DNA from: a virus
Length of the DNA stretch: 29,909 bases
Strand: one strand, 5' to 3'
IMG/VR virus record: IMGVR_UViG_3300044617_000594
Coordinates: 1-29,909 of that record
Shown: piece after piece, positions 784 through 29,909 of the stretch
How the letters are laid out: the number at the start of each line of letters is the position of its first letter
Numbering within the stretch: the stretch's first letter is position 1
Made by a program: the position numbers and the translations under genes
The notes under the pieces: model-generated
What the model saw: the letters and a program-made list of their open reading frames with translations, nothing else
Databases searched by the model: none
What the model was told of the DNA's origin: nothing

Positions 784-1311
784 TTATACCTTATCGGGTG
801 CGATCTCGCTTGAATCGTTAGAGTCGGCCTGTTCGGGTATAGCCTCGGGCGTTACCTCAATAAGCTGAGGCGATGGCGATGGAAGCTCAATAGACTTCAA
901 ACTGTTTAGAGTGTCGCGCTCTGGAACGCTGAAAGAAATCTTAAAGTTCTGTTGAGAATTGGTCTCAACCTCAACCTTGTCGCCGTAGCGTTTCGGGGCA
1001 AGTTTAGAAGCGAACCATTTTAGAGCATCCATGCGAAGCCGTCCAATTTGGGCATCATGCGAGGAAAAAGCCTCATCTAATACCCGTTCAGCTAATGTGT
1101 CAGCCTGCTTCGCCCTCGCGCGAGTGTAGGCTGCAGAGAATTCGGGATTTTCATCCATCCACCTATATATGGTCGGGATGCTTGGAATGTCTGGAAGTTG
1201 GGTAATGTTGGAGAGCGTAAGTCCCTGTTCGAGTAGTTCGCAAATGTGGTTTGCGGTATCTTGGCAAAATGGGATTTGTGGTCGGCCTGCTTTTTTTTCG
1301 GTTGTTTGCAT
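784..1311 (-). CDS. terS: Terminase small subunit, Sf6 gp1-like
   Basis: This 175-residue protein matches the layout of Sf6-type small terminases. A short basic start contains GRP (about residue 9). A helix-turn-helix follows, with LEQGLTLSNI and a recognition helix ending in TIYRWMDENPEF (residues 47-58). Next comes a helical oligomerisation segment (YTRARAKQADTLAERVLDEA), then the family-typical RLRMDALKWFASKLAPKRYGDK (about residues 90-111). The tail is Pro/Ser/Glu-rich and acidic. The protein would bind pac DNA and present it to the large terminase, which is not in this window. Its position at the head of a leftward unit is usual for phages. The start is ATG at 1311. Confidence in family is high; the DNA site is unknown. 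Confidence 0.88.
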   Translation of the reverse strand: MQTTEKKAGRPQIPFCQDTANHICELLEQGLTLSNITQLPDIPSIPTIYRWMDENPEFSAAYTRARAKQADTLAERVLDEAFSSHDAQIGRLRMDALKWFASKLAPKRYGDKVEVETNSQQNFKISFSVPERDTLNSLKSIELPSPSPQLIEVTPEAIPEQADSNDSSEIAPDKV

Positions 1312-8508: not shown

Positions 8509-8907
8509 ATGAAACAGATTAATTTATTTGGGCAGGAGTTTAACCCAATCAAAGAAGATCAAAAGTATTCATCAAAAATACAAGCTCCAGTTTACGAGCC
8601 AAAAGGTAAAAAGCCTCATGTTTTTGAGCTATGCGACAAATCAAAATCACTTTCCTTGATTAGAGACATAGAAAGCTCATTACTTCCAGAAGAAGAAAAA
8701 AAGTTCCTGATAGATGCAGCAAGAAGGCACAATGTCTTTAATTATGAAAAGATTGCAGACTATTACGCACATTCATCGAAAGAAATGCAGGAATTGATGG
8801 AAAAATCAGCACTTGTTATTATTGATTTCAACAAGGCTATTGAATTTGGGTTCGTTAAGGTTTGTGAAGAAATAACAAACAGATACCTTGAAGAATATGA
8901 AATCTGA
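8509..8907 (+). CDS. Conserved phage protein next to the glycosyltransferase
   Basis: This encodes 132 residues. After a variable start (INLFGQEFNP), a helical domain runs KPHVFELCDKSKSLSLIRDIESS, LPEEEKKFLIDAARRH, VFNYEKIADYYAHSSKEMQELMEKSALVIIDFNKAIEFGFV. I recall this last part as a conserved unit in phage proteins but cannot name a tested function. Its stop overlaps the glycosyltransferase start by 11 nt, a close coupling that suggests a shared DNA-modification role. That link is inference. Confidence 0.65.
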   Translation: MKQINLFGQEFNPIKEDQKYSSKIQAPVYEPKGKKPHVFELCDKSKSLSLIRDIESSLLPEEEKKFLIDAARRHNVFNYEKIADYYAHSSKEMQELMEKSALVIIDFNKAIEFGFVKVCEEITNRYLEEYEI

Positions 8908-9742
8908 CTTCTGTGTTTTTATATTAACGCATGGCAGGCCAGACAATGTTTATACATCCAAAATGTTGCTGAAACGAGGATATACTGGAAAAATATTTTA
9001 TGTTCTTGATGATGAAGATAAGTCTGTAGATCAATACAAGCAACGATTTGGAGAAGAAAATATATTTGTGTTCAACAAAAAAGAAATGGCAGACAGTATT
9101 GATGAGGGCAACAATTTCGACAACAGAAGCGCAGCAGTTCATGCAAGAAATGCAACATACAAAATTGCTGAAAAGATTGGATTTGAATTTTTTATACTAC
9201 TTGAAGATGATTATGTTGAAATCGAATACAAACTAACGAATGTAAAGGCAGGGCAGTATCCCAAAAGTCTTGATTTTGTTTTTTCTACAGTTATGAATTA
9301 TTATAAATCCATTGATGCTGCAAGCGTTGCATTGGCCCAAAATGGAGACTTCATAGGTGGAATAGATAATGGTGTGCAGGCATACAGGTTCAGTAAGCGT
9401 AAGTGTATGAACACCTTCTTTTGTTCAACCAAAAGACCTATTCAATTTATTGGTCAGTTTAATGATGATGTAAATACATACACAACACTTGGAAACAGAG
9501 GAAAATTGTTTCTAACGATCCCAGTAGTTTCAATCAGACAAGTTTCTACTCAAAAAACAAAGGGAGGAATGACAGAATTGTATCTCCAATATGGAACTTA
9601 TTGTAAATCATTCACAAGCGTAATGATGCACCCAAGTGGTGTATGTGTGAAAATGTTGAATTCAACCAACAAGAGAATCCACCATTCCATCAATTGGAAA
9701 GCGACAACCCCAATGATAATTAGTGATATATACAAAAAATAA
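8897..9742 (+). CDS. TET-associated glycosyltransferase (TAGT) for DNA base glycosylation
   Basis: This encodes 281 residues from the ATG at 8897; a TTG at 8888 would add three. It matches the TAGT family defined beside phage TET/JBP oxygenases. It has FILTHGRPDN (8-17), VLDDEDK (36-42), FDNRSAAVHARN (74-85), the acidic metal/nucleotide-sugar motif LLEDDY (101-106), GQFNDDVNTYTTLGNRGKLFL (about 190-210), and a C-terminal GTYCKSF...HHSINW. The fold is GT-A-like. Family members are proposed to attach sugars to hydroxymethylated pyrimidines in phage DNA, protecting it from restriction. No TET dioxygenase or pyrimidine hydroxymethylase is visible in this window, so the acceptor base is unknown. 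Confidence 0.82.
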   Translation: MKSDFCVFILTHGRPDNVYTSKMLLKRGYTGKIFYVLDDEDKSVDQYKQRFGEENIFVFNKKEMADSIDEGNNFDNRSAAVHARNATYKIAEKIGFEFFILLEDDYVEIEYKLTNVKAGQYPKSLDFVFSTVMNYYKSIDAASVALAQNGDFIGGIDNGVQAYRFSKRKCMNTFFCSTKRPIQFIGQFNDDVNTYTTLGNRGKLFLTIPVVSIRQVSTQKTKGGMTELYLQYGTYCKSFTSVMMHPSGVCVKMLNSTNKRIHHSINWKATTPMIISDIYKK

Positions 9743-13484: not shown

Positions 13485-13901
13485 TTAGAGCAGGCTGAAC
13501 GCCTCTGCCACTGTATCGTTAAACGAGAATGGTGCGGCTCCCCAATCTTCTTTCGGCGCTGGTGACTGCACATACTCCGCGAGGATCGTGTTCGTCCACG
13601 CTTTCACGGCGTTCAGTTTCTCGCTGACTTTGCCTGCCGCTTGGAGTTGCGCGGCGAGGTCGAGGAGTGTGACCAACTGGGTCGGGCCATAACCTTCTTT
13701 CTCCAGCCAAGCATTCGCTGTGTATGTAGGAGCGGGTGGAATGATCCAATATCCCGGCCCCCATGTGGCATTCTCCGATGGTTTAGCGGGAGTCAGCGCA
13801 TACTCGTCCAGCTTGGGGTTGCTCGTCTCCGTCCAAAGATCAATCGTCTCTTGGGCGATGTCCTTCCGTTCAAAGTTTGTTTTGTTGTAATAGTTAGGCA
13901 T
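13485..13901 (-). CDS. Tail-fibre-associated protein, unknown function
   Basis: This encodes 138 residues and is the last leftward gene. The N-terminal half is Tyr/Trp/Pro-rich (YYNKTNFERKDI..., ATWGPGYWIIPPAPTY) and the second half is helical (LVTLLDLAAQLQAAGKVSEKLNAVKAWTNTIL). It follows the LamG-domain fibre gene with an 8-nt overlap, so a fibre chaperone or tip accessory role is possible. No family recognised. Confidence 0.6.
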   Translation of the reverse strand: MPNYYNKTNFERKDIAQETIDLWTETSNPKLDEYALTPAKPSENATWGPGYWIIPPAPTYTANAWLEKEGYGPTQLVTLLDLAAQLQAAGKVSEKLNAVKAWTNTILAEYVQSPAPKEDWGAAPFSFNDTVAEAFSLL

Positions 13902-14520
13902 AGACTCTTGGGTGGGTTGCTACTGTTGCGGTGTTGTTGTTGGTGATGGTCAAACCGCCCTTGGCGTCGATGAGGTCGCGGACGAGCGGGGCGTAGAAGA
14001 CGAGGTTCTGCGGGCGCACCTTGTCGCAGGTCATTCCTTTGGCGAGGGAGGCAATTTCTTCGGCGGTGAGGGCTGCTGACCAAATTCCGACTTCACACAT
14101 TCTTCCATTGATCGGGTTATTGCTCGTTGAATTAGAATATCCAGAGCCAATAGATAACGTATCTATGTCTGTTACATTTACTGTTGTTGTGTTTGCTCCT
14201 CCCGAGACTGCATTTACATAGGAAGTTCTGCTGTTGTTTGCTGAAAAAACGCTTGCGCCATGATACCAAGCATTAGAACTTGGTATTGAACGGTTTGATT
14301 GTCCGCTTGTTCCAGATTGGTAACTATTTGTCCATAAATTTCCAATATTATGATACATTGTATGCCACTTGTCTCCAGCTCCAAATCCCAAATGCATCAA
14401 TCCACCCAAATTTTGCACATTTGTAAGATTAAACCAACACGCCATCGTTAATGGAACGGATGTTATCGGCGCTGTTGTGCTTAAATATTGACCGCTTGCG
14501 GATGCAAAATTTAAGGCCAT
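13894..14520 (-). CDS. LamG/concanavalin-type jellyroll tail protein
   Basis: This encodes 208 residues with the classic laminin-G-like pattern: ALNFASASGQYLSTTAP at the start, MACWFNL (about 26-32), then repeated short strands with Gly/Asn/Ser, and the late GRMCEVGIWSAALTAEEIASLAKGM (about 139-163) found in phage and bacterial LamG_3 jellyrolls. Such domains bind sugars and are common in receptor-binding proteins. It sits downstream of the fibre-shaft-like gene, so it is probably a receptor-recognition module. The final 40 residues (APLVRDLIDAKGGLTITNN) look like a repeat tail found in related proteins. Confidence 0.78.
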   Translation of the reverse strand: MALNFASASGQYLSTTAPITSVPLTMACWFNLTNVQNLGGLMHLGFGAGDKWHTMYHNIGNLWTNSYQSGTSGQSNRSIPSSNAWYHGASVFSANNSRTSYVNAVSGGANTTTVNVTDIDTLSIGSGYSNSTSNNPINGRMCEVGIWSAALTAEEIASLAKGMTCDKVRPQNLVFYAPLVRDLIDAKGGLTITNNNTATVATHPRVYA

Positions 14521-16552: not shown

Positions 16553-16742
16553 ATCTATCTACCCTCAATTTATAATAAATTTCGTTTAATCTAACCCGCT
16601 CCTGTGTTTTTGTCCAGAATTTGTCACAGGCAATGTTGACCATCCTGCAAGTTTCATAGAACCAAGGGTCATAGTCCTTGCCGTCATATCCAGACCGCTT
16701 GTGGTCGTTTGCGGAATCTTTTACAATAGTCTTTTTGTCCAT
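16542..16742 (-). CDS. Small protein, unknown function
   Basis: This encodes 66 residues, hydrophilic and aromatic (GYDGKDYDPWFYETCRMVNIACDKFWTKTQERVRLNEIYYKLRVDRYGF). It overlaps the next gene by 11 nt and the previous one by 22 nt. No family recognised; it lies directly downstream of the ERV-like fusion gene and may be co-translated. Confidence 0.55.
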   Translation of the reverse strand: MDKKTIVKDSANDHKRSGYDGKDYDPWFYETCRMVNIACDKFWTKTQERVRLNEIYYKLRVDRYGF

Positions 16743-17416
16743 AGTTGCTCTGCTTCTGAAAGTGAAATTGTTGGTTTCCCGATTCTTTGATTGACATTGT
16801 TGTGCAAGTCAACTCCCCATTTCCATAGATCATAATAATTGGGTGGAAATTGATTGCAATAATCTTCAAAATGTTGTTGGCAAGGGCAACCATTCCAAGG
16901 AATCGATTCAACCCAATTGTCAAACCAGTTCTTTATGAATTCATGGTCTTTGCAGTTTTTATTCCTCAAGGAAAATAAGTGAAGCTCTGTCCATAGCCTT
17001 GGCCCATCACGAAGTATGACAGACTGCGATAGCTGTTGGCTTCGCTCAACCTCGTCGCCTGCTCGCTGCACCCAAGCGTTGTGTTCATCCCAATCGATGC
17101 CCATGGCCTCGCAGACGATGCGCTCAACTTGTGTGGCAACCATGTGTTGTTTGTGATAGGGGGCGCTTGGATGATCGCCGGGTTCCTCCAATTCTGGATG
17201 CTCAACATCAAACTTGGTTACGCTCTCTTCTGATACCCCATCCTTTAAGCAGAGGAAACTTTCCACCAGTTCATGCAATGCCACAAGGAATGCGTTATCA
17301 TCTTTCATCCCATAATCAACAACAGGCATTATCACATGATCTCCCACTTTCTCCCAATCGCCTGTAGTGACATACCGCATAAGCGATGGGTCGACAGACT
17401 TTGCCTCAAATTTCAT
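16721..17416 (-). CDS. Fusion of HExxE-motif domain and ERV/ALR-like sulfhydryl oxidase-type domain
   Basis: This encodes 231 residues. Residues 1-115 hold H48-E49-L-V-E52 in a helix after VDYGMKDDNAFLVAL, and further His/Asp residues (HPSAPYHKQH, 82-91), a possible metal site. Residues 138-215 resemble the ERV/ALR fold: GPRLWTELH (138-146), W164-W168, a CxC pair at C177/C179, Y186, PP, and LHNNVNQRIGKP (204-215), matching the HNxVNxxxGK flavin-binding end. ERV/ALR enzymes use FAD to oxidise thiols to disulfides through a CxxC; here the pair is CxC, so catalysis is uncertain. The gene lies just downstream of the ATP-grasp gene, separated by two mini-frames. No reported fusion of this kind is known to me. 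Confidence 0.62.
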   Translation of the reverse strand: MKFEAKSVDPSLMRYVTTGDWEKVGDHVIMPVVDYGMKDDNAFLVALHELVESFLCLKDGVSEESVTKFDVEHPELEEPGDHPSAPYHKQHMVATQVERIVCEAMGIDWDEHNAWVQRAGDEVERSQQLSQSVILRDGPRLWTELHLFSLRNKNCKDHEFIKNWFDNWVESIPWNGCPCQQHFEDYCNQFPPNYYDLWKWGVDLHNNVNQRIGKPTISLSEAEQLWTKRLL

Positions 17417-17499
17417 TTCTTTGGTTTGCTGTCTGTATCGTCTGGATCGAATGGCTTACATATCGTCCCACCATAGCGCCGCTGCAATTGCCAATCCAC
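17413..17499 (-). CDS. 28-residue mini-frame with GTG start (uncertain)
   Basis: A GTG at 17499 starts a frame VDWQLQRRYGGTICKPFDPDD... whose stop overlaps the start of the ERV-like gene as ATGA. It overlaps the membrane mini-protein out of frame over 44 nt. The overlap with the next start is the only strong support; it may be real or chance. Confidence 0.3.
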   Translation of the reverse strand: MDWQLQRRYGGTICKPFDPDDTDSKPKK

Positions 17500-17554
17500 C
17501 TCCAAAAAAAGTAGAAACAACAAGAATAAGATAAACCCAAGAATCATGTGTCAT
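17456..17554 (-). CDS. 32-residue single-span membrane protein
   Basis: It starts at the ATG at 17554, overlapping the ATP-grasp stop as ATGA. Residues 6-27 are a hydrophobic helix (WVYLILVVSTFFGGGLAIAAAL), then WWDDM. The single span with short ends suggests an inner-membrane peptide. It is out of frame with, and overlaps, the 17413-17499 frame, a nested arrangement that recalls spanin-type pairs but with no signal or lipobox seen. Confidence 0.5.
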   Translation of the reverse strand: MTHDSWVYLILVVSTFFGGGLAIAAALWWDDM

Positions 17555-18837
17555 GCGAAATAGTTCAGCCCAAGCCGATCCATTTTTTCAATTGCCTCTA
17601 TTGCCTTGTCAGTGGCTGCTGTTGGCATTTCCAGATAATATCCAGAAACACCATCACAATGCTTGATGGCAACCTCAATGGCATCCTCTACCGATTCATC
17701 ACTCAAACCGATTACTGCGCCAATCTCAGGCAATCCATCGCCCATTGGGGAGATGTATTCGCGCCCATTGATCTTCATTGAATTCCGCAGTTTCACCCAT
17801 TGGCGAATCGCAGGGTCAATGTCTACTGGTTGCCAGTTGCCAGATGCCCATGAAGAGTGAATCAAAACTTCTGCGCCATATTTTGCCTTTGGTTCTGGAT
17901 CAACAACGATGCCATTTGCTCCATACCAGACAATCTCTGCAAAGTTGCTGTAGAGTTCCTGCCAAAGTTCGTTGGGCGGCGATGGGCTGCGCATGCATCC
18001 ATCGATCATGTAGGGGCGATGGTCTTTGCCAATACGAACCTCAGTGGACATCCAACCACGATAGTTGTATGCCTTGAAAACATTCTTCATCCTATCATTG
18101 AAGCGGCGAATAGGCTCTGGAATCTCCTCATATTTCGTGAAAATACCAACATACGCCAAATCCTTGATCTCAAGCCCTGACATAAGCTGCGATGGGTATT
18201 CCCCATCAATCACAAATCCATCAGTCCCACCTTCAAACATATTAGGCTCTTCAATCTGCTCTTCGACTGTGAACTCAATAATGTGCTTTAGGGGGCCAAT
18301 CTTGTATTCAATCTCGTCCAGCTTTGGTTCCACCATCTGGTAGTTCTTGCTGTGGAATGTTTCAAATGTCCCACGCCACTTGTTGATCTTGACATAGACA
18401 TTCTTCTTTTGCTTGAGATATGAACGAAGGTTATCAAGACCTTTGATATGCTCGTATTTGCCAACAGGAAGGTCGAGTAGCTTCAGGATGTCCTTCATGC
18501 CCTCACGATCAAGCTCTAGACACTCTCCAAGCCGTGATCCCCAGACCACCTTGCCTTGGTCAACCAAGTATTGTTGAAGAGGGCCATGGTTAATGTCAGG
18601 GAAGACAAACAAATCAATCTCTTCAAAATGTGGGCCAAATATGGAATCCACAACCTCAATTTCATCGTAGCCATACCCAATCATGCTGGTCATCTTGGGG
18701 AATGCAGTCTCCCAAGGCGTGTAGGAATAGACCTTCTTGAATGTCTGCGCCAAGCGAAGTGCCTGCGAGATAAACAGCCCATGGTCGATGAACAGTGCCG
18801 TCACTTCTGACGGGTCTTTAAGACTGGATTTATCCAT
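17551..18837 (-). CDS. ATP-grasp ligase-like protein (PurD-type fold)
   Basis: This encodes 428 residues. The first 120 residues form a Rossmann-like preATP domain (ALFIDHGLFISQALRLAQTF, DLFVFPDINHGPLQQYLVDQGKVVWG). The ATP-grasp core follows: VYVKINKW (lysine), IEFTVEEQIEEPNMFEGGTDGFVIDGEYP, then STEVRIGKDHRPYMIDGCMRSPSPPNELW (about 278-306), which resembles the metal-binding Glu/Asn part of PurD and carboxylate-amine ligases. A C-terminal domain with SDESVEDAIEVAIKHCDGVSGYYLEM follows. ATP-grasp enzymes join a carboxylate to an amine or thiol via an acyl phosphate. The substrate is not evident. It begins 1 nt into the previous stop (TAATG). Confidence 0.72.
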   Translation of the reverse strand: MDKSSLKDPSEVTALFIDHGLFISQALRLAQTFKKVYSYTPWETAFPKMTSMIGYGYDEIEVVDSIFGPHFEEIDLFVFPDINHGPLQQYLVDQGKVVWGSRLGECLELDREGMKDILKLLDLPVGKYEHIKGLDNLRSYLKQKKNVYVKINKWRGTFETFHSKNYQMVEPKLDEIEYKIGPLKHIIEFTVEEQIEEPNMFEGGTDGFVIDGEYPSQLMSGLEIKDLAYVGIFTKYEEIPEPIRRFNDRMKNVFKAYNYRGWMSTEVRIGKDHRPYMIDGCMRSPSPPNELWQELYSNFAEIVWYGANGIVVDPEPKAKYGAEVLIHSSWASGNWQPVDIDPAIRQWVKLRNSMKINGREYISPMGDGLPEIGAVIGLSDESVEDAIEVAIKHCDGVSGYYLEMPTAATDKAIEAIEKMDRLGLNYFA

Positions 18838-24851: not shown

Positions 24852-25157
24852 TTAGATAATTTGATTTTTTATATTTAGTTTTTTTCTTGCTTCAAGGCAT
24901 AATTCACTATTGGGTGCAAAATATCTACAAGAATCTGGTCTGTCAAAATAAATTGAGCATGACACGCAGCTTCCTACGATGCCCTGAAGTGCCACACATC
25001 TATTGTTTTCTGTTTTCATTAGTGGATAGTCTGTTCTTTGCATTTCAATAGGTATTCTTGTTGCATCTGATCTGTCTTTTTTAAGAACGGGCCAAGACCA
25101 CTTGTAAGCACAGCAAGCACCACATGAAATGCAATCTTCACTTGTTACTTCTTCCAT
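24852..25157 (-). CDS. YkgJ-family CxxCxxCC cysteine-cluster protein
   Basis: This encodes 101 residues. It has the YkgJ/UPF0153 signature: C9-I-S-C12-G-A-C15-C16 near the start, then RCVALQGIVGSCVSCSIYFDRPDSCRYF (about 58-85) with the conserved C-x-A-L-x-G...V-x-C-x-I-Y-x-x-R-P-x-x-C. These proteins bind a metal or Fe-S centre and are thought to act in redox or metal chemistry, without a defined reaction. The gene overlaps the PP-loop ATPase gene by 13 nt, so both are made together. It is unusual among virion genes. Confidence 0.82.
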   Translation of the reverse strand: MEEVTSEDCISCGACCAYKWSWPVLKKDRSDATRIPIEMQRTDYPLMKTENNRCVALQGIVGSCVSCSIYFDRPDSCRYFAPNSELCLEARKKLNIKNQII

Positions 25158-25981
25158 TCTACAGGACGAAACCCAAGGTCAGGAATAACAATATCTTCGT
25201 ATGGAACCATGTCGCTTATGTTGGTTATTGTGGCATTAAGTTTAGGACAATTCACATGGCGACCAAGATGCCGATTAACACAATTAAAACAAGTTGGGTA
25301 AAAGTCTGCATTCAGTGACTTATCTGGATTGTTTATCCACTTTCCATTAACCTTGATATATCTTGTTGGGTCTGGCTGAATCTTGTTTTCTTCTAAATAC
25401 TCAAATATGTCATCATCGCTCCAATCACGCATTGGATACAAGGATACTGGCGCGCCATCGACAATTCTGATGTCTTGAGCAAGTGGAACATGACCTTTGA
25501 TTAGGTCTGTGTCTTCGTATTTTGTTCCAATATACACCGCTCCCCAATGCCAATTAAAAGTTCCTGTAGGGCGCTGTAGGAAGTCTGTAACGCCACACAG
25601 ATACTTTTCTCCATCTTTTGGAGCTTCTGTTCCAAGTGACAATACAATGCAATTTTTGCCCCATTGAAAATAGTGGAGCATATCAAAGCGAACCTCCCCA
25701 GTATTGACATCAGGCCCATCTGCCAATGCCACCTTCATGGGGGGATACTCATATACCTCCAAATCCCACTCCTTGATTAGTCGATCAGAATACGCATATC
25801 GCTCACGAAATTTAGGTTGGCGAAACTGAATGACAGGAAGATCAATTTCTGCTCCATATCGAATCAAATGAAGCAGTGCTGTTGAATCTTTTCCTCCACT
25901 CCAAAAAACAACTGCTCTAGGCCACCTTTTATTCCACTCTTTTATTCTATTTATTGTTTTATTTATTATGTCGTTTTTCAT
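25145..25981 (-). CDS. PP-loop ATPase of the PAPS-reductase-like (CysH/DndC) superfamily
   Basis: This encodes 278 residues. Its PP-loop motif is S28-G-G-K-D-S33-TALLHL in a Rossmann-type alpha/beta core. DMLHYFQWGKNC, YLCGVTDFLQRPTGTF and YPMRDWSDDDIFEYLEENKI (W-DDDIFEY pattern of CysH relatives) follow. The C-terminus has cysteines (TCFNCVNRH...NC) but not the ECGIH motif of true PAPS reductases, so sulfate reduction is unlikely. Related enzymes activate a substrate with ATP for sulfur transfer, as in DndC or tRNA thiolation. The partner YkgJ-type gene overlaps it. The start overlaps the upstream stop as TAATG. Confidence 0.8.
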   Translation of the reverse strand: MKNDIINKTINRIKEWNKRWPRAVVFWSGGKDSTALLHLIRYGAEIDLPVIQFRQPKFRERYAYSDRLIKEWDLEVYEYPPMKVALADGPDVNTGEVRFDMLHYFQWGKNCIVLSLGTEAPKDGEKYLCGVTDFLQRPTGTFNWHWGAVYIGTKYEDTDLIKGHVPLAQDIRIVDGAPVSLYPMRDWSDDDIFEYLEENKIQPDPTRYIKVNGKWINNPDKSLNADFYPTCFNCVNRHLGRHVNCPKLNATITNISDMVPYEDIVIPDLGFRPVEWKK

Positions 25982-28459: not shown

Positions 28460-29909
28460 TTAGCAGGGGTTTTGTTTTCTATATTGTTGCGCTGCGGCAT
28501 TCGCGGCTTGTTCTGCAAGAATTCCAGCCTGCTCCTCTGCATGCGTGAATGAAACGCTTGAAAGGAACGATGCTGCTGCTGTGGCAGAAATAAAAAATAA
28601 TCCACTTGGGCAGGGAACAGTCACAGTTTTGTATACTTTGGCAAACCAACTTTGTTGATCTGTTTTTGGAGCTTCGTATGGACTTGGCAGAAGATCAAGA
28701 GTCAATGTTGTTCCATCTTGTGCAAGCAAGCAAGACTTTGTTTCGTCAGATTGTGGAATGCCTGTTGACCTCTCACTCCATGGGTCTTGGAACATTCTTA
28801 TTGCCTCAACTCCCATTTCACCACACCACTCGACCAAAAGAGAAAATCCCTTGTCAATATCTGATGTCAAGTGTGACTCGCAAGTTTCAGACGATGCATT
28901 GCGTGTTGCTGACTCAGTAATAAGCCTTCTGTATTGGCTATTCAGAAAGCCCAACTTTTTAATCTCATTTTCGTATGGAGTATTTTGCCATTGGTAGTCC
29001 TCTGTGACAGCAAGAATTCTTTTGTCCAAAACTTTTTGATATTGCCCCTTGCTGCCGCGATACGAAACTTGCACATCAACTGTTCCACCAATCTCGCTGC
29101 ATTCAAGTTCAGAGTAGACAAACTGCTTGTAGTCGAACCCATCTCCTAAAAGTGCAGTTTCAACTTGCGCGTAAATCCTGTTGAAAATGTCTGTTGTTGT
29201 CCCGTCGGCATTGATGCTCAAATAAGAATCAACCTTGTTTGGCATGAATGATTCCCAAAGAGAAATATATGAACCATCGTTTGTGGCTGAATAATCAACA
29301 GAGAAATGAAAGCACCTTGGTTGACCACCAACAATTCCAGTAGTCCACTCAACTGGTCGCGTTCCCGTCCACACACCACACCACGCTGGTTGCCTTTGTG
29401 AACCCATTTCTGCTGCAATGGCCCAATCCATGACCATGGTCGCAGAGTTTAGAGGCTCAAGATATGGGATGCTGTAAAGAAGGTAGTTCTCAAACGAAAC
29501 TGCACATATTCCAGTTTGGTTTCCTGCCATGTATGATTTCGCACGAACCATCTCGACATCTTTGTAGAGAACCTGTGAAGATAGGTAGGCATTGCCAGCA
29601 ACATCAGCAGACACAAGCCCACCCTGCGAGAACCACCACATTTGACCAGCTTGAAAGGCAATCGACTTACCAGCTATACAACCAATGTTTGGAAAAAGAA
29701 TAGTCAGAAAGTTCGCTGTGCTTGCCCAAGTGGCTCTATCGTAGATTCCGCTTGATAGCGCATAGGTTTCCCTGTCTGTGAAAACATACAATTTCACATC
29801 GTTGTTCTGTCCTACATAATTGACAAGTGCTGTAACTGGTCTGGTGAACGAAAAGTCTCCACGCCCCTCTCCTGTCGTTCGTTCTTGCCAGCTTGTAGGA
29901 TCGCCCAAG
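28460..29909 (-). CDS. Tail protein with beta-propeller-like pattern (N-terminus beyond right edge)
   Basis: At least 482 residues are visible, and the frame enters from the right edge, so the true start lies outside. The first 240 residues alternate short strands with Trp/Tyr and Gly (DVKLYVFTDRETYALS, MWWFSQGGLVSADVAGNAYLSSQVL, ENYLLYSIPYL), like the tail nozzle/hub propellers of podoviruses (T7 gp12, P22 gp10 type). A central domain (about 245-380) has strands such as VDVQVSYRGSKGQYQKV, and the C-terminus is an Ala/Gln helix ending NPC. It is likely a tail tube or nozzle component, upstream of the ejection-like genes. Confidence 0.65.
   Translation of the reverse strand, partial: LGDPTSWQERTTGEGRGDFSFTRPVTALVNYVGQNNDVKLYVFTDRETYALSSGIYDRATWASTANFLTILFPNIGCIAGKSIAFQAGQMWWFSQGGLVSADVAGNAYLSSQVLYKDVEMVRAKSYMAGNQTGICAVSFENYLLYSIPYLEPLNSATMVMDWAIAAEMGSQRQPAWCGVWTGTRPVEWTTGIVGGQPRCFHFSVDYSATNDGSYISLWESFMPNKVDSYLSINADGTTTDIFNRIYAQVETALLGDGFDYKQFVYSELECSEIGGTVDVQVSYRGSKGQYQKVLDKRILAVTEDYQWQNTPYENEIKKLGFLNSQYRRLITESATRNASSETCESHLTSDIDKGFSLLVEWCGEMGVEAIRMFQDPWSERSTGIPQSDETKSCLLAQDGTTLTLDLLPSPYEAPKTDQQSWFAKVYKTVTVPCPSGLFFISATAAASFLSSVSFTHAEEQAGILAEQAANAAAQQYRKQNPC

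Follow-up and report, generated by a model that had tools for sequence, protein, structure and literature searches.

Comparison across environmental phage contigs leads us to recognise, judged from sequence, a conserved pair made up of a PurD-like ATP-grasp ligase and a small domain carrying an HExxE motif, with the ERV/ALR sulfhydryl oxidase-type domain fused to the latter being a separable add-on. The comparison establishes that the HExxE domain is coupled to the ligase, that loss of the ligase gene goes together with loss of the HExxE site, and that the ERV domain is independent of the ligase. An earlier note on this DNA had taken ligase and oxidase as the pair; instead, ERV persists without the ligase, the ligase occurs without ERV, and it is the HExxE domain that tracks the ligase. 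The stretch analysed (‘the window’) is a single 29,909-base IMG/VR virus record from an uncultivated phage, in which the following features make up the module and its links:

17551..18837, minus strand: PurD-like ATP-grasp ligase, 428 aa (family profile against the PDB; remote members against GARS_A/GARS_C)
17974..18003, minus strand: DGCMRSPSPP, the counterpart of EFNCRFGDPE in E. coli PurD (alignment)
17456..17554, minus strand: 32-aa membrane-type peptide MTHDSWVYLILVVSTFFGGGLAIAAALWWDDM, with a 4-nt overlap with the ligase stop codon
17413..17547, minus strand: 44-aa overlapping frame, a doubtful gene, open only in close relatives
16721..17416, minus strand: HExxE + ERV/ALR fusion protein, 231 aa (Pfam, phmmer, AF2, Foldseek)
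17042..17416, minus strand: HExxE domain at the N-terminus (residues 1-125), which also occurs by itself as a phage protein of ~130 aa
17261..17275, minus strand: HELVE motif, residues 48-52; at 95% clustering, all 25 fusions with a ligase and 2 of the 18 without one have it intact
16724..17017, minus strand: ERV/ALR domain, residues 134-231, with conserved W142, H146, H205, N206 and N209 (Pfam, profile, fold)
16880..16891, minus strand: GCPC, a CxC where ERV has CxxC; CPC is invariant across the fusion family alignment

Both the 428-aa and the 231-aa reading frames run on the minus strand from ATG starts with zero internal stops and occupy the positions previously assigned to them. The 428-aa product, for which a PurD-like ATP-grasp layout had been proposed, is predicted with good support to be a PurD-like ATP-grasp protein, that is, a member of a class of enzymes which form amide or related bonds: (i) a family profile built from 53 relatives finds PurD as its best PDB match (1vkz, E 3.9e-5), with PurD accounting for 5 of the 6 top matches, (ii) remote, HExxE-adjacent family members exceed the Pfam cut-offs of GARS_A or GARS_C, and (iii) the ATP-grasp and C-terminal regions of PurD and the ligase family are collinear. 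It is the family profile and the remote members that carry this assignment; the window protein by itself has no notable Pfam or PHROG match and stays below the cut-off of every Pfam ATP-grasp model. An hhalign comparison of the family with the single E. coli PurD sequence (E 9e-4 but a probability of 23%) was not relied on, and the AF2 model of the ligase, made from a shallow alignment of 6 sequences, reached a pLDDT of 44.

Across the 53 ligase sequences, K150, E192, E223, K225, E266, R268, D279, R283 and SPP286-288 are invariant, so that the ATP-site lysine and acidic residues (K150, E192, E266, D279) are kept. The PurD signature EFNxRFGDPE is rewritten to DxCxRxxSPP, in which D279 and R283 are invariant, and the position of the PurD asparagine is mostly cysteine and sometimes threonine. 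The E-x-N metal ligands are thus absent from window-type ligases, which have D-x-C, while the more PurD-like phage members mostly have E-x-T. With the usual asparagine metal ligand replaced by cysteine or threonine, the ligase could have lost textbook ATP-grasp chemistry. As side observations, in one ligase gene (L008:8001-10352) the Cys281 position of DxC is the insertion site of an in-frame intein that includes a LAGLIDADG-like domain, and an HNH-endonuclease-type gene (family f24, ~200-236 aa, assigned by a Pfam run on the L063 copy only) lies between the ligase and HExxE genes in L020, L021, L022, L063 and L066 and is another selfish element at the ligase site. Two further ligase relatives (L142, L143) come from MAGs, one of Acidobacteriaceae and one of Methanoregulaceae, where they are on short contigs; they may be hints to hosts or viral contamination.

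ERV/ALR enzymes oxidise thiols, and the C-terminal part of the 231-aa protein has the ERV/ALR fold. PF04777 (Evr1_Alr) matches residues 141-226 with 34.2 bits against a cut-off of 27.6, and African swine fever virus (ASFV) pB119L (3gwl) is matched at 2.2e-8 by phmmer and at 7e-13 by profile. An AF2 model of the whole fusion protein, computed with 47 relatives aligned, has a pLDDT of 95 and a pTM of 0.84; its best 24 Foldseek matches in the PDB are all ERV/ALR proteins (TM-score 0.73 for 3gwl, by target length), and among viral matches the sulfhydryl oxidases from ASFV and giant viruses rank best. The residues of the FAD site, i.e. the aligned W, H and HNxVN (205-209) positions, are invariant in the fusion family. 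Both Pfam and the predicted fold hence bear out the ERV/ALR domain that the earlier note had read from the letters, though not its description of CxC as the ERV pattern: the motif of that family is CxxC, and all fusion relatives have CPC (177-179) in its place. Since distant ERV-like proteins on other viral contigs carry either CxxC (L308, L311-L316) or CxC (L304, L305, L307, L309, L310), CxC is a recurrent ERV variant. In two of the latter (L304:3794-4909 and L309:3698-5056), the ERV-like domain is followed by a long C-terminal part that looks glycosyltransferase-like by eye.

The HELVE helix of metal-site type, likewise noticed earlier, is confirmed in so far as H48, E49 and E52 are present in the window protein and conserved. 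In ligase-associated members of the HExxE family, H48, E52, D70, E78, P79, P86, Y87, H91 and E98 are invariant. The motif is HExxE rather than the HExxH of zincins, the family profile found no match among PDB sequences, and a Foldseek search of the PDB gave no significant structural match, with zincins (abylysin, ZMPSTE24) appearing only at E ~1 or worse. Searches of Pfam returned a weak partial match to the metal-binding domain of DtxR for 6 of 20 members (best 9e-4). The domain is probably a small zincin-like metal-dependent hydrolase. In one locus (L003:9417-10097, the same as L016) the HExxE-ERV gene is stopped after residue 61 though the ligase is present, which reflects either a recent nonsense mutation or an assembly error.

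Which genes pair was assessed from both sides. The patterns used retrieved at least 175 ligase relatives from IMG/VR, where HExxE relatives number 232, and 72 distinct ligase loci, many of the surveyed loci being on possibly incomplete contigs, divide into 25 with an HExxE-ERV fusion, 11 with HExxE alone, 23 with a SpeD-like gene, 4 with HExxE and a SpeD-like gene, and 9 with none of these near, although 2 of these 9 encode HExxE elsewhere in the same record. The ligase is thus without ERV at 11 of the 36 loci where HExxE occurs by itself or in the ERV fusion, and at every SpeD-type locus. Conversely, ERV without the ligase was found in 23 records and in L258, L260, L265, L275 and L303. A search seeded with the HExxE domain yielded 80 phage loci, 44 of which have a same-strand ligase no more than 200 nt away, while neither ERV (0/80) nor a SpeD-like protein (0/80) was found nearby. 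The neighbourhood survey that had been proposed as a check therefore upholds a linked partner of the ligase, but this partner is the HExxE domain and not ERV. After iteration, HExxE stood without a ligase in 33 of the 80 loci, pointing to other uses of the domain or to unrecognised partners.

The strongest evidence for the coupling comes from fusion proteins whose loci have lost the ligase. At 95% clustering, every one of the 25 fusions from ligase-bearing loci has an intact HExxE motif, whereas among the 18 from ligase-free loci it is degraded in 16 (Fisher 6e-10); at 70% clustering the motif is intact in 12/12 versus 1/8 (Fisher 1e-4). Because clustered proteins are not independent points, ligase status was also traced on a tree of the ERV domain, which requires 11 changes, at least 5 of them forced by well-supported branches. 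The decayed motifs (GKLVE, RNLVQ, HKMVE, HQMVE, REVVE, SKLVE and RELVE) vary between lineages, which argues for independent decay. H48, E49, D70, the D/E at position 81 and H91 are mostly lost along with the ligase; E52 and E98 mostly stay in decayed copies, and the CPC of the ERV domain is intact throughout, whether the ligase is present or absent. With the exception of L072, all mapped ligase-free loci show a clean empty site, at which the ligase alone is missing and the flanking sequences continue, and whole-record searches, one of them run with a positive control, found no ligase elsewhere in the ligase-free records that they covered. The two exceptions that keep HExxE without a ligase (L015, L037) may represent recent ligase losses. 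Since HExxE decays without the ligase while CPC stays, and since 11 loci have HExxE and ligase without ERV, we conclude that within the fusion family HExxE, unlike ERV, is dependent on the ligase.

The module appears to lie in a late operon, as had been suggested: virion-type genes flank it on both sides and on the same strand, and the early-type genes of the window (RecT, exonuclease, DnaD-like, DnaB-like) are encoded on the plus strand. The flanking matches are:

13894-14520, minus strand: match to a virion structural protein (phrog_8510)
28460-29908, minus strand: match to an internal virion protein (phrog_511, E 0.0016)

In several lineages, L044 and L046 among them, the reading frames of ligase and fusion protein share 11 nt. 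Of the two overlapping mini-frames described between the two genes in the window, both exist, but they fare differently: the 32-aa peptide is kept across the sub-lineages of the window, whether these have the ligase or lack it, whereas the 44-aa frame, being open only in close relatives, is rejected as a conserved gene. Elsewhere, the window encodes an Sf6-type terminase small subunit (784-1311, minus strand), a PAPS reductase-like protein (25145-25981, minus strand; PF01507 above cut-off) that the nearest relatives keep whether or not they have the ligase, and a TET-associated glycosyltransferase, TAGT (8888-9742, plus strand; PF20691, 109 bits). The last suggests DNA base glycosylation in the window phage; as TAGT is absent from all 29 relatives searched, DNA modification by the ligase module together with TAGT was discarded.

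In our view the best explanation, to which we assign a probability of roughly 0.6, is a two-part module consisting of the PurD-like ATP-grasp ligase and the HExxE metal-site protein, with ERV chemistry being separate. By analogy with PurD, the ligase would spend ATP on turning a carboxylate into an acyl phosphate and join it to an amine, yielding an amide, and the HExxE domain would take a step of that pathway, by releasing the carboxylate or amine for the ligase or by cleaving its product. The phage lineage of the window would have gained ERV/ALR as an addition to HExxE, and the ERV/ALR domain would do work of its own, independent of the ligase, most likely FAD-dependent disulfide formation through CPC. 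The module may serve particle assembly or host takeover, the former being suggested by gene position only.

What the substrates might be is hinted at by another large branch of the ligase family, in which a SpeD-like protein (pyruvoyl decarboxylase family) takes the place of HExxE as neighbour, and which also has terminase and portal genes in the region. All 9 of the SpeD-like neighbours tested match PF02675, 4 of them above the cut-off. In the family located upstream of the ligase (L106-L140), a serine and a cysteine are invariant, and most members have aspartate in place of the processing histidine (H68 in T. maritima SpeD; PMC10407285); in 13 of 15 neighbours that position holds Asp or Glu, so that these proteins could have lost the textbook chemistry. 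The occurrence of a SpeD-like alternative neighbour suggests, and would fit, a small amine as ligase substrate. A specific form of the two-part module, possible although the odds are against it, is then that the amine is a diamine (putrescine, agmatine or a relative), which the ligase would couple to a carboxylate in every branch, with HExxE being an amidase that reverses conjugation or releases the amine, as in glutathionylspermidine synthetase/amidase pairs. SpeD-like neighbours at 27 of the 72 ligase loci speak for such chemistry, as do phage SpeD homologues, some of which are decarboxylases of ornithine or arginine (PMC9992855, PMC10407285); against it stand the mostly missing processing histidine and a search, run without a positive control, that found no SpeD-like gene elsewhere in 30 HExxE-type or partnerless records. 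More tentatively, the module might be an as yet unrecognised phage conjugation system, expressed among the virion genes, in which the carboxylate that a PurD-derived ligase joins to an amino acid or small amine belongs to a protein (of phage or host) or to a nucleotide. Its helpers would be interchangeable, a metal-dependent HExxE hydrolase in one set of phages and a pyruvoyl decarboxylase-like protein in another.

It is also conceivable, if rather doubtful, that the HExxE domain is no enzyme and serves as a metal-dependent scaffold or regulator of the ligase. The weak similarity of the HExxE helix to DtxR and the survival of E52 and E98 in most decayed copies are in keeping with this; the joint loss, in most cases, of H48, E49, D70, the D/E at position 81 and H91 with the ligase is what one expects of an active site.

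Two further proposals fit the survey poorly. That ligase and HExxE-ERV form one pathway, with amide formation and thiol oxidation making or crosslinking a peptide or a virion protein, draws on their adjacency at 25 of 72 ligase loci, at times with overlapping reading frames, and on the virion-type genes on both flanks, but is rejected by the repeated double dissociation (ERV with its CPC without ligase, ligase without ERV) and is thus quite unlikely. It is similarly improbable that the ligase is PurD proper, an auxiliary gene of purine synthesis making glycinamide ribonucleotide: PurD is the closest solved family and remote members pass the GARS_A or GARS_C cut-offs, but the signature is rewritten, the genes that recur around the ligase include no recognised purine gene, and coupling with HExxE or SpeD-like proteins would be unexpected for PurD.

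Among known systems, PurD (phosphoribosylamine-glycine ligase, GARS_A/GARS_C) resembles the ligase in its collinear regions and as best structural relative, and differs by its signature and by the ligase's pairing with HExxE or SpeD-like proteins. The fusion protein shares its fold and the FAD-region W, H and HNxVN with the ERV/ALR oxidases pB119L of ASFV and R596 of mimivirus, but has CPC for CxxC and belongs to a tailed-phage lineage; R596 is likewise an ERV protein with an extra, unclassified domain (PMC3509050), which is C-terminal there, whereas the HExxE domain is N-terminal. In the LUZ24-like phage UFV-P2, a cluster of COOH-NH2_lig, Amidoligase_2, glutamine amidotransferase, ATP-grasp and AIG2/GGCT-like genes similarly places phage amide chemistry beside a possible hydrolase, but lies in the early region, and the available portion of that report names no HExxE, SpeD-like or ERV genes (PMC3890496). 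The R2K ATP-grasp peptide ligases of phages and giant viruses, predicted protein modifiers, share phage-encoded ATP-grasp with the ligase but form a separate divergent clade for which the accessible parts of the reports describe no such partners, and are set apart here by description only (PMC4431377, PMC7824862). Phage SpeD-derived ornithine and arginine decarboxylases have PF02675 in common with our SpeD-like neighbours (PMC9992855); they differ in that no ATP-grasp protein is mentioned with them (PMC9992855, PMC10407285) and that the neighbours' processing histidine is mostly Asp, and no SpeD-like protein was found in the window.

A tblastn search of 50,697 GenBank phages gave zero matches for three HExxE proteins and for four ligases that are window-clade or HExxE-adjacent. 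A remote PurD-like ligase member alone finds GenBank phage relatives, of which a Manatee Spring phage is best at 43% identity, with no HExxE gene in the parts of its record examined. PHROGs holds no family of its own for the window-type ligase or for HExxE. Neither the ligase with HExxE, SpeD-like or ERV partners nor the HExxE-ERV fusion, presumed undescribed in phages by the earlier note as well, was found in a literature search that covered few subscription papers or preprints, such that an earlier description is possible. The ligase-HExxE pair is widespread in environmental phages and appears to be undescribed.

The module would belong with the known ATP-grasp amide chemistry of phages. Window-type ligase and HExxE are families without a Pfam or PHROG entry of their own, present on hundreds of environmental phage contigs, and as a conserved operon pair they offer a testable biochemical class. 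A further point is the phage ERV-type domain, whose CPC is invariant and whose fusion partner is an unrelated, enzyme-like domain. The SpeD-like alternative provides candidate amine substrates of the ligase. Finally, the lineages in which ligase gene and HExxE site have gone together amount to a series of mutants made in nature.
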